58,720 nucleotides of DNA from an uncultured Synechococcales cyanobacterium (GTDB lineage Bacteria > Cyanobacteriota > Cyanobacteriia > CAIUCS01), in the NCBI GenBank assembly GCA_903897715.1, contig CAIUCS010000028.1:1-58720 (forward strand). Direction: 5' to 3'. The notes beneath the pieces are model-generated. The model was given only the letters and a program-made list of their open reading frames with translations. It had not been told where the DNA came from and searched no databases. Every line of letters starts with the position of its first letter. Position 1 is the first letter of the stretch. The position numbers and the translations under genes are program-made. Below, in pieces: positions 21,548 to 55,139 of this stretch.

Positions 21548-22450
21548 ATGGGAAACACTGATTTAAAAAAATTGCAAGCAGAAAAATTATCTGAAATCGG
21601 TTCACGTCTAAGTGAAAGTCGTTTGGAACAGCTTTTAACCTTGGAACAGGTTGCCTCAAAAACGATGATGCAGACTAAAACTCTAAAGGCAATCGAATTA
21701 GGTGACTTATCCCAACTGCCCGAGTCAATTTACATTCGGGGATTTATTAGCCGATACGCATCAGCTTTAGGATTTGATGGCACAAAACTAGCCGATGAGT
21801 TTCCTGTTGAACCAACACTAGAGCCAAGTATTGTGTGGAATGATACACCAGTGGCTCAACTCCGTCCCCTGCACCTTTATTGGCTGTACGCCGCTGTAAT
21901 TACATTGGCAATTAGTGCTCTTTCTTATTTTTTACAACAGTCTACATCTCCAGTTGCCTCCCTGAGTCCTTCCCCAGTGGTTACTCCCAGTCCCTCACCA
22001 TCCGTTACTCCTAGTCCTTCCCTAGTTGTTTCCCTGAGTCCTTCCCCAGTGGTTACTCCCAGTCCCTCACCATCCGTTACTCCTAGTCTTTCCCCAGTTG
22101 CCTCCCTGAGTCCTTCCCCAGTGGTTACTCCCAGTCCTTCCCCTACCCTAAACCTCTCAGGTCAGCCCATCCAAGTTAACCTAACCTTTAAGGGACAGGC
22201 TTGGATTTCAGTGGAAGTGGACAATAAATTTGCCTTTGAAGGCATTCTGCCTGAAGGTACTCAACGTAATTGGAAGGCGAATCGGGAAATTTTGTTACGC
22301 TCTGGTAATGCGGGTGCTGTCTTAGTCTCGGTGAATGGTAGCGTTCCAAAACCAATGGGTGAACCAGGAGCAGTGGAAGAATTAAAATTATCTTCTCAAC
22401 CAACTCCTTCTGCCACTCCTTCCCTCCGTCCTGCCCTTACTCCGAGATAA
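21548..22450 (+). CDS. RodZ-like helix-turn-helix membrane protein (DUF4115)
   Basis: The N-terminal HTH_25 domain (about 12-88) has L-T-L-E-Q-V-A and Y-I-R-G-F-I-S-R-Y-A, as in RodZ, which links MreB to the cell wall machinery. One membrane helix follows (about 111-130), then a Ser/Pro/Thr/Val repeat region (about 136-200). A C-terminal DUF4115-type beta domain (about 205-285, Q-A-W-I-S-V-E-V-D-N) completes the 300-residue protein. No mreB is nearby. Confidence 0.8.
   Translation: MGNTDLKKLQAEKLSEIGSRLSESRLEQLLTLEQVASKTMMQTKTLKAIELGDLSQLPESIYIRGFISRYASALGFDGTKLADEFPVEPTLEPSIVWNDTPVAQLRPLHLYWLYAAVITLAISALSYFLQQSTSPVASLSPSPVVTPSPSPSVTPSPSLVVSLSPSPVVTPSPSPSVTPSLSPVASLSPSPVVTPSPSPTLNLSGQPIQVNLTFKGQAWISVEVDNKFAFEGILPEGTQRNWKANREILLRSGNAGAVLVSVNGSVPKPMGEPGAVEELKLSSQPTPSATPSLRPALTPR
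21953..22145 (+). repeat. 72-nt tandem repeat coding for a Ser-Pro-rich 24-residue unit
   Basis: There are about 2.7 nearly identical units, each coding for a repeat of the type V-[AV]-S-L-S-P-S-P-V-V-T-P-S-P-S-P. They form the periplasmic linker of the RodZ-like protein. Such arrays change copy number readily. Confidence 0.85.
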
Positions 22451-22479: not shown

Positions 22480-23538
22480 ATGGCTGGATCCCCTCTGTCC
22501 CATGTAGACCAACACCAACGACCAGCAATGGTGGATATTAGCCACAAAACTGATTCCCAACGGGTGGCATTGGCTGAAACCACCATTCAACTCCCTAATG
22601 CTCTCCGTGATTACATTCAAGGGGATGATTTTTTATTGAAGAAGGGTGCGGTTTTACAAACCGCTATTCTGGCTGGCACCATGGCGGTGAAAAAAACATC
22701 TGATCTCATTCCCCTGTGTCATGGTTTACCCATAGAAGCTTGTCAATTCCATACCCACATTGATGATGTTCATTTAGTCATTACCCTTCAATGTGAAGTG
22801 AAAACAACCTATAAAACTGGGGTTGAGATGGAGGCTCTCTGCGGGGTATCGGTGGCGGCGTTGACTATTTATGATATGTGTAAATCGGTTTCACCGGAGA
22901 TTATCATTTCCCAAACCCGATTATTAAAAAAAACTGGTGGTCAGTCCAATATGTGGGTTGAACCCATCTATGGTTTGGTTTTAACCGGTGGTAACAGTCA
23001 ACGTATGGGTCAGGATAAGGCTTTGATTGATTACCACGGACTCCCCCATGCCCAATTTCTCCATAAACTACTCATGCCCTATTGTGACCAGGTTTTTCTG
23101 TCTGCTCGACTAGGACAATGGCAGGGTACAGTGTTAGAAACCCTACCTACCTTGGTAGATGGGGAGGATAGTGTGGGACCTTTTTCTGGCATCTTGACCG
23201 CGTTGGAAACCTATCCCAAGGTTAAGTGGTTGATCCTGGCCTGTGATTTAGTTCATGTCCAAGCTTCCCTGATTGAACGGCTTTTGGATCAAGCCCATTC
23301 ATCCGCGATCGCCACTTGTTTTCGTAATCCCGAATATGGATTTCCTGAAGCTCTTTGCGGTCTTTATACGCCTAAGATACGACCGTTTTTCCAACGGGCT
23401 AAAGTAGCTAAAATCCATTGTCCGGTGAAGATAGTACAAATGGCTGGAGGGCAGTTAATTGATCCGCCAGATGTCAAAGCCGTTGCTAATATTAATACTC
23501 CTGATGAATTAAATCTCCTGAATTCCGCTGGGGGCTGA
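22480..23538 (+). CDS. Fused molybdenum cofactor protein: MoaC (N) and MobA (C)
   Basis: Residues 1-~158 are a complete cyclic pyranopterin monophosphate synthase (MoaC), with M-V-D-I-S-H-K, L-I-P-L-C-H-G-L-P-I, G-V-E-M-E-A-L and T-I-Y-D-M-C-K. D132 and K135 are spaced like the catalytic pair of E. coli MoaC. Residues ~164-352 are a MobA-type molybdenum cofactor guanylyltransferase with the nucleotide-binding L-T-G-G-N-S-Q-R-M-G-Q-D-K-A. The two join in one frame with almost no linker. MoaC acts first in the pathway and MobA last, so this is not simple substrate hand-off. No other mo-genes are nearby. Confidence 0.9.
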   Translation: MAGSPLSHVDQHQRPAMVDISHKTDSQRVALAETTIQLPNALRDYIQGDDFLLKKGAVLQTAILAGTMAVKKTSDLIPLCHGLPIEACQFHTHIDDVHLVITLQCEVKTTYKTGVEMEALCGVSVAALTIYDMCKSVSPEIIISQTRLLKKTGGQSNMWVEPIYGLVLTGGNSQRMGQDKALIDYHGLPHAQFLHKLLMPYCDQVFLSARLGQWQGTVLETLPTLVDGEDSVGPFSGILTALETYPKVKWLILACDLVHVQASLIERLLDQAHSSAIATCFRNPEYGFPEALCGLYTPKIRPFFQRAKVAKIHCPVKIVQMAGGQLIDPPDVKAVANINTPDELNLLNSAGG

Positions 23539-23930: not shown

Positions 23931-23961
23931 ATGTATTTGGATGTCTATCTTTTATTTACCA

Positions 23962-24618
23962 ATGGCATCATCTTCCTCTATAGCGGTCCGCGAATTACCC
24001 CTTTTCCCCTTACCAGAAGTGGTTCTCTTCCCTGGACGACCCCTACCACTCCATGTATTTGAGTTCCGCTATCGGATTATGATGAACACAATACTGGAGA
24101 GCGATCGCCGTTTTGGTGTCCTCATGTGGGATCCTAATCAAAATTCCCCAGTTTCTATTGGTTGTTGTGCTGAAATCCTTCAATATCAACGTTTACCCGA
24201 TGATCGGATGAAGATTCTAACCTTAGGGCAACAACGATTTCGTGTTTTGGACTATGTACGGGAAAAACCCTATCGGATTGGATTAGTTGAGTGGATAGAG
24301 GATGAGCCAACTGATGTTGATATGCGGGGGTTGGTCAAGGAAGTTGATCAATTATTAAAAGATGTGGTTCACTTATCTGCCAAATTAACCGGACAACCAA
24401 TGGAACTTCCAGACACCATTCCCACAACTCCATTGGAATTATCCTATTGGGTAGCCGGCAACTTGTATGGTGTTGCCACTGAACAGCAAACCTTATTAGA
24501 AATGCAGAATACCCAATCTCGTTTAGAGCGAGAAGTTGAAATTTTGACCTCAACCCGAAATCATTTAGCTGCTCGTACAGTCTTGAAAGACACCTTTGAT
24601 GGTTTTCCTAGCAACTAA
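23962..24618 (+). CDS. Lon N-terminal (PUA-like) substrate-binding domain protein
   Basis: This free-standing Lon-N protein of 218 residues has no ATPase or protease domain. The hallmark opening R-E-L-P-L-F-P-L-P-E-V-V-L-F-P-G is followed by H-V-F-E-F-R-Y-R-I-M. A helical C-terminal part (about 120-218) ends in a coiled-coil-like stretch. These proteins are common in cyanobacteria, but their function is unclear; binding of proteins or of a ligand is suggested by the domain. I start at the ATG at 23962, since seven upstream in-frame residues look non-conserved. Confidence 0.85.
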   Translation: MASSSSIAVRELPLFPLPEVVLFPGRPLPLHVFEFRYRIMMNTILESDRRFGVLMWDPNQNSPVSIGCCAEILQYQRLPDDRMKILTLGQQRFRVLDYVREKPYRIGLVEWIEDEPTDVDMRGLVKEVDQLLKDVVHLSAKLTGQPMELPDTIPTTPLELSYWVAGNLYGVATEQQTLLEMQNTQSRLEREVEILTSTRNHLAARTVLKDTFDGFPSN

Positions 24619-54772: not shown

Positions 54773-54879
54773 ATGTCATAGTCTATGGTGGGAGGTTGAT
54801 TATTTTGTTCGATTTGGTTTATTATTAATTAATATCTATCTTCTGAATCTTTCACGAAACAGTCCTTTTTCTATTCCAT

Positions 54880-55045
54880 GCCAGAGACAGCAGGAGCCAA
54901 AGGCTTAATCATTCCTGCCGAGGTGGTCACAAAAATTCCATTCTTATGATCAAAAAAAGTATTTACGTTTAGATACTGGATGATTTTAAGCTTGAAATAA
55001 CCACCTCTACCCTCTGGCAGTATTCCAGGGGGTTTGTTTTATTGA
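54880..55045 (+). promoter_or_regulatory. L10 ribosomal protein leader with attenuator
   Basis: Conserved leader sequence gacagcagg...cttaatcattcctgccgaggt lies at about 54885-54924. GAGGTGGT (54920-54927) pairs with ACCACCTC (55000-55007), closing the leader fold that L10(L12)4 binds. One base later begins an intrinsic terminator. Binding of L10 is expected to switch the rplJ-rplL transcript off. Confidence 0.85.
55009..55040 (+). terminator. Attenuator terminator of the L10 leader
   Basis: A 9-bp stem pairs accctctgg (55009-55017) with ccagggggt (55025-55033), including one G-T pair and a seven-base loop. It is followed by ttgtttta. Confidence 0.8.
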
Positions 55046-55139
55046 GGGTTTTAAGGTGCATACAAACTTGCTTTCAACCCTGACGTGTCAGATGAAATGA
55101 ATCCAGTGATTGTAAATCGTTCAAGGAGGTGAAACTGAA

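Follow-up and report, generated by a model that had tools for sequence, protein, structure and literature searches.

The window analyzed here, 58,720 nucleotides of DNA from an uncultured Synechococcales cyanobacterium, carries one gene in which moaC and mobA are fused. Very probably, this gene encodes a bifunctional enzyme of molybdenum cofactor synthesis that goes back to a single merger of neighboring genes within an operon, followed by sideways spread and replacement of the native moaC and mobA genes. MoaC acts early in the pathway, after MoaA, and makes cyclic pyranopterin monophosphate, and MobA performs the last step, attaching GMP to the finished Mo-pterin (MGD or bis-MGD). In the fused protein, the N-terminal MoaC half would catalyze the former reaction and the C-terminal MobA half the latter, and the two active sites, joined by a short flexible linker, probably act independently. 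This explanation takes in the fusion itself and its domain content, the conserved residues, the single clade formed by the fusions, the gene order, and a search for separate copies that found none.

Both domains in one continuous frame

The 352-codon frame was unbroken and contained no internal stop (Table 1). Two Pfam domains lay in one chain, MoaC first and the MobA domain ten residues on; with one domain ending at residue 154 and the other beginning at residue 165, the very short linker described in the initial annotation was borne out. No frame break was found at residues 155 to 165, and the continuous join was common to 12/12 aligned fusion proteins, the window's included. We found no point in favor of an assembly or frameshift artifact that fused two genes, and we dropped this explanation as vanishingly improbable, since the 11 other aligned proteins have the same continuous join and come from other assemblies, five of those genomes being single contigs (G014, G089, G179, G241, and G247). 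Given the intact open reading frame (ORF), both Pfam domains, and the unbroken join, the fusion first read from the bare sequence is real.

Table 1. Positions of the fusion gene, its parts, and its neighbors in the window
Feature	Position	Strand	Basis or remark
moaC::mobA fusion gene	22480..23538	+	352 aa, ATG to TGA
MoaC domain, residues 17-154	22528..22941	+	Pfam PF01967
Inter-domain linker, residues 155-162	22942..22965	+	Pfam limits and predicted model
MobA half, residues 163-344	22966..23511	+	Pfam NTP_transf_3 at 165-302
MobA nucleotide-binding motif TGGNSQRMGQDK, residues 169-180	22984..23019	+	sequence, comparison with E. coli MobA structure
RodZ-like protein (HTH_25 + RodZ_C), upstream neighbor	21548..22450	+	unrelated to cofactor synthesis
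LON substrate-binding domain protein, downstream neighbor	23941..24618	+	unrelated to cofactor synthesis

The first half matched the whole PF01967 profile (positions 1 to 136 of 136) with 159.3 bits against a cutoff of 27 and also passed the cutoff of the MoaC model TIGR00581 (149.2 versus 141.5 bits). Comparison with the solved structure of E. coli MoaC paired K55, H81, E116, E118, D132, and K135 with K51, H77, E112, E114, D128, and K131, and all six positions were invariant among 12 aligned fusions. With a full domain above the cutoff and the active-site residues kept, this half belongs to MoaC. PDB titles show that the MoaC variants D128A and K51A were studied.

The second half matched NTP_transf_3 (PF12804) with 85.0 bits against a cutoff of 27, over profile positions 1 to 139 of 160. 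Here R175, K180, D256, N337, and N339 corresponded to R19, K25, D101, N180, and N182 in the solved structure of E. coli MobA and were likewise invariant among the 12 aligned fusions; we take these positions to bind GMP and Mg. We assigned this half to MobA on its NTP_transf_3 domain and these putative GMP/Mg-binding residues. It gave 73.8 bits with TIGR02665 (molyb_mobA), below the cutoff of 151.85, and 126.1 bits with the bifunctional model NF011059, which is above the TIGR02665 score yet below that model's own cutoff. The statement that both halves keep their catalytic or nucleotide-binding motifs thus held at the matched E. coli positions, whose importance we presume from the E. coli literature. 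As a separate observation, two fusions (L011 and L012) have alanine where the window protein has the aspartate D179, directly before the lysine of the MobA motif.

An AlphaFold model built on 12 sequences had a mean pLDDT of 80.1 and a pTM of 0.55, and does not settle the relative arrangement of the two domains. The pLDDT fell below 50 at residues 1 to 7, 77 to 81, 155 to 158 (in the linker), and 286 to 289. Foldseek matched the model to solved structures of MoaC (4pyd and 1ekr) and MobA (1e5k and 1fr9). The steps catalyzed by the two halves are not consecutive, as the initial annotation had pointed out from knowledge of the pathway, and we therefore dropped channeling between the two sites. 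In an excerpt from a review of Synechocystis metabolism, MoaC of that organism is given as likely bifunctional, at the second and fifth steps (PMC7133116). A literature search found no experiment on any MoaC::MobA fusion.

The window's genome gave one match to the fusion protein at an E value of 0.001. PF12804 was found at 12 places in this genome, one being the fusion gene, and the MobA model at an E value of 1e-15 matched none of the 7 strongest of the 11 others. Three of those 7 passed the cutoffs of GlmU, RmlA, and IspD, and four resembled sugar-phosphate nucleotidyltransferases while staying under the cutoff. With a single protein match and no MobA among the 7 PF12804 places checked, the draft genome thus yielded neither moaC nor mobA as a separate gene, and the suspicion that functional copies elsewhere might leave the fusion silent found no support.

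Three other features of the window are recorded here. A tandem repeat with a 72-base period (21950 to 22143; 2.6 copies, 93% match) lies inside the RodZ-like gene and encodes a Ser/Pro/Val/Thr-rich linker. On the + strand, 54863 to 55048 matched the Rfam model of the ribosomal protein L10 leader (RF00557, 56 bits). The start of the contig (1 to 171) holds 1.8 copies of a 93-base unit with a 97% match, perhaps an assembly break point.

A patchy distribution and a known family

Among 386 genomes drawn from the phylum, 181 had a match at an E value of 0.001. Full-length fusions were found in 12 of the 386, including the window's, at 6.1e-122 or better and with no second match; the other 169 gave far weaker matches (no better than 1.5e-45), and among the matches listed the halves lay apart. 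In a set of 116 relatives, the fusion was whole in 15; in a 16th, the draft genome G447 (L131, contig C282), decay or an assembly error has spread it over two frames. Together these make 20 distinct fusion genomes, the window's and 19 other cyanobacterial ones, one of them split, and the distribution among cyanobacteria is patchy. The initial annotation had asked how widespread the fusion is and whether separate genes coexist with it; these counts, with no second match beside the full-length fusions of the phylum draw, bear on both questions.

A scan of genome contigs with the single protein gave no relative. With an alignment, the scan gave 597 confirmed places; none of the best 80, among whose titles no cyanobacterium is named, combined the two halves in a single ORF (MobA sought at an E value of 1e-6). 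This sample cannot show fusions to be absent outside cyanobacteria. A plasmid search returned two Persicobacter records, in each of which the match fell into two parts (about 42%).

The MoaC-MobA fusion is already known, both as a named NCBIfam family and in print for Synechocystis. The family NF011070/PRK14500, "putative bifunctional MoaC/MobA," has the same domain order, length, and join as the window protein, which aligned over residues 6 to 346 with profile positions 8 to 350 of 358 (533.4 bits, E value of 2.7e-160). However, this score is below the curated cutoff of 606 bits and is the lowest among the 11 fusions scored, of which 5 passed and 6 failed, so that 5 of the 10 others also fall short. 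Because both trees described below place the window protein among the fusions, we assign it to the fusion clade, not to the PRK14500 equivalog as strictly cut. The named families MoaC/MoaB (PRK03604) and MoaC/MOSC (PRK14499) likewise join MoaC to another domain of the cofactor pathway, but the partner differs, and the window protein matches only their MoaC part.

In an excerpt from PMC10094980, slr0902 of Synechocystis sp. PCC 6803 is listed as moaC within the ammonium-repressed unit slr0898-slr0903. A genome with the gene order reported for that unit (G076), whose kinship with Synechocystis we infer from this order, has a fusion that shares 58% identity with the window's. slr0902 stands in a nirA-cynS-moeA-moaA-moaC-moaD-moaE unit, whereas the window fusion stands alone. 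With 19 other cyanobacterial genomes, a named family, and a description in print, rarity of the fusion, which could be read into the initial annotation's remark that the two enzymes normally stand alone, was not supported.

Probable origin from overlapping neighbors

The 19 fusions other than the split copy L131, which was left out, formed one clade both in a MoaC tree of 118 rows (support 100/96) and in a MobA tree of 60 rows (support 100/99). Native cyanobacterial MoaC and MobA were placed apart from the fusions in both trees; one native MoaC row (L170) had a long branch and fell outside its own group. A grouping of the fusions with native cyanobacterial MoaC was rejected (p-AU 0.0006; 62 rows, which retained 24 of the 80 loci of other bacteria, and with L170 outside the tested group), as was a grouping with native cyanobacterial MobA (p-AU 0.019), all groups having been named only after a tree had been seen. 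A fusion of native cyanobacterial genes was thus rejected for both halves. More than one donor is possible, since holding the fusions together with MobA of non-photosynthetic relatives was not rejected (p-AU 0.216), in a tree whose deep branches are long and flagged. In the MoaC tree, the wider clade around the fusions comprised Bacteroidota, Verrucomicrobiota, some Gammaproteobacteria, and other bacteria, together with 4 of the 6 MoaC rows of non-photosynthetic relatives (L019 and L169 fell elsewhere).

Of the best 80 of the 597 confirmed places, all 80 being loci of other bacteria, 25 had both halves, always as separate ORFs, and mobA directly followed moaC in 21. At the junctions examined, mobA was out of frame with moaC in 9/9, and the first start in the mobA frame preceded the moaC stop in 8/9. 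This arrangement, in which moaC neighbors mobA or a mobA-containing gene of about 390 aa, occurs in Bacteroidota, some Gammaproteobacteria, and some non-photosynthetic relatives of cyanobacteria and is the nearest type to both fusion halves in the trees; it keeps the two genes as distinct ORFs, for the most part overlapping and in different frames, whereas the fusion is one ORF. The genes of about 390 aa are extended at the N terminus; by eye, the extension in L040 resembles MobB, and two that were tested (L048 and L055) had no Pfam MobB match.

Of the 19 other fusion loci, 12 were examined; all 12 had the order moeA-moaA-fusion-moaD, and in 10 of them moaE followed. An unfused version of this order (moeA-moaA-moaC...moaD-moaE) occurs in the non-photosynthetic genome G047. 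In the window's genome, the cluster lies in three places: moeA-moaA on contig C8, the fusion in the window itself (contig C28), and moaD-moaE on C56. The RodZ-like upstream neighbor is unrelated to cofactor synthesis, so the fusion gene stands outside the usual cluster here.

Gene order and phylogeny together argue for a merger of overlapping operon neighbors. The fusion would have arisen once, when moaC and mobA merged inside a cluster of the moeA-moaA-moaC-mobA-moaD-moaE type, unlike the native genes; a single length change at the overlapping junction would suffice. The fused gene would then have spread among cyanobacteria, displacing native moaC and mobA, and the cluster of the window's genome would have been scattered later. 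In genus g55, G430 has the fusion, and the five congeners in the genome sets (G177, G332, G405, G421, and G439) give two weak matches each instead, as separate genes would, which suggests that G430 carries a transferred nitrate-cofactor cluster.

Client enzymes and the fate of the MobA half

The dinucleotide cofactor that enzymes of the DMSO-reductase family use is the product of MobA. In an excerpt from a review, MobA is linked to this family, and the cofactor shown bound to MsrP is plain Mo-pterin (PMC7759655). A gene of the family (PF04879) was found in 19 of the 20 fusion genomes, the exception being the window's. In several loci, the fusion and narB or nirA were no more than about 10 kb apart, and two genomes of fusion-carrying genera, G440 and G452 (83% complete), showed neither the fusion nor PF04879. 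These associations would fit a fusion selected for its function, as the initial annotation had proposed, with MobA mounted on the MoaC oligomer so as to fix stoichiometry or to couple pathway entry to bis-MGD formation for nitrate reductase, the main client. We consider this quite unlikely. Non-fused cyanobacteria show the same link to PF04879 (6/6 examined), so that it is silent on the fusion, and the two steps are not consecutive. The window's genome also keeps the fusion with no DMSO-reductase-family gene found, which argues against a tight tie between entry and bis-MGD. The proposed coupling was thus not supported and is not needed, since gene order and phylogeny account for the fusion as a merger of overlapping neighbors. 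As a side observation, in G430 the fusion cluster is adjoined by a NarB gene that spans two ORFs (L139:11492-13594), and a second PF04879 gene elsewhere has an open frame of 719 aa.

The window's genome gave no match to PF00384, PF04879, or a NarB protein query, the last run without a positive control. No clear NirA was found either: PF01077 found only a ferredoxin sulfite reductase (971.7 bits, cutoff 731.5) and a CobG-type protein on contig C148. We rejected the latter as NirA, since it was above the CobG cutoff (292.6 versus 234.8) and under the nitrite-reductase-type cutoffs (381.5 versus 523 and 234.7 versus 594); the first of these, a raw score with PRK09567 (NirA type), was higher than that of CobG but below its cutoff. 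Cobalamin-type genes, recognized by eye, adjoin the CobG-type gene. In searches that covered the DMSO-reductase family and MsrP, the only molybdoenzyme found was MsrP (442 bits, cutoff 207) with MsrQ, on contig C174 (L150:724-2271), in a genome with moaA, moaC::mobA, moaD, moaE, and moeA.

One explanation of these findings is that nitrate assimilation was lost, that the whole pathway now serves the periplasmic repair enzyme MsrP, which takes Mo-pterin without GMP, and that MobA stays only because it is welded to the needed MoaC; or else MobA serves an unrecognized client. Relative to positions invariant in the other 18 fusions, the window protein departed at 6/58 in the MobA half (others 0 to 2 each) and at 1/54 in the MoaC half (others 0 to 1 each), which hints at weaker constraint on MobA. 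However, no catalytic position is among the six, the excess is modest, and the window protein has a long branch in both trees (MobA, 0.53; MoaC, 0.46); moreover, a change common to a tip and its near twin in the set goes uncounted, so that the fair comparison is with lone tips such as L003, L006, L007, and L125, at 1 to 2 changes each in the MobA half. The draft, at 99.99% completeness, is in 207 contigs, so it is possible that the nitrate cluster lies in an assembly gap; one missing contig could hold nirA-nrt-narB. As a control, PF04879 was found in 153 of 160 genomes of the class with a moaC or mobA match. The seven without it were the window's (G000, with the fusion), four with two matches (G051, G127, G262, and G385), and two with one match (G153 and G231). 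Two matches, read as separate moaC and mobA genes, occur in 111 genomes of the class, four of which thus also lack PF04879; MobA may therefore outlive NarB without a fusion. All in all, loss of the client with MobA kept by its fusion appears doubtful.

The window protein is a real, intact, and ordinary member of a known fusion clade, with the missing NarB as one loose end. If that lack is real, the genome would be a natural test of whether a fused domain decays after the loss of its client. What the analysis adds is the probable history of the fusion, namely, one event inside an operon, spread, and replacement of both native genes; given this history, direct cooperation would be a weak inference from the fusion here.
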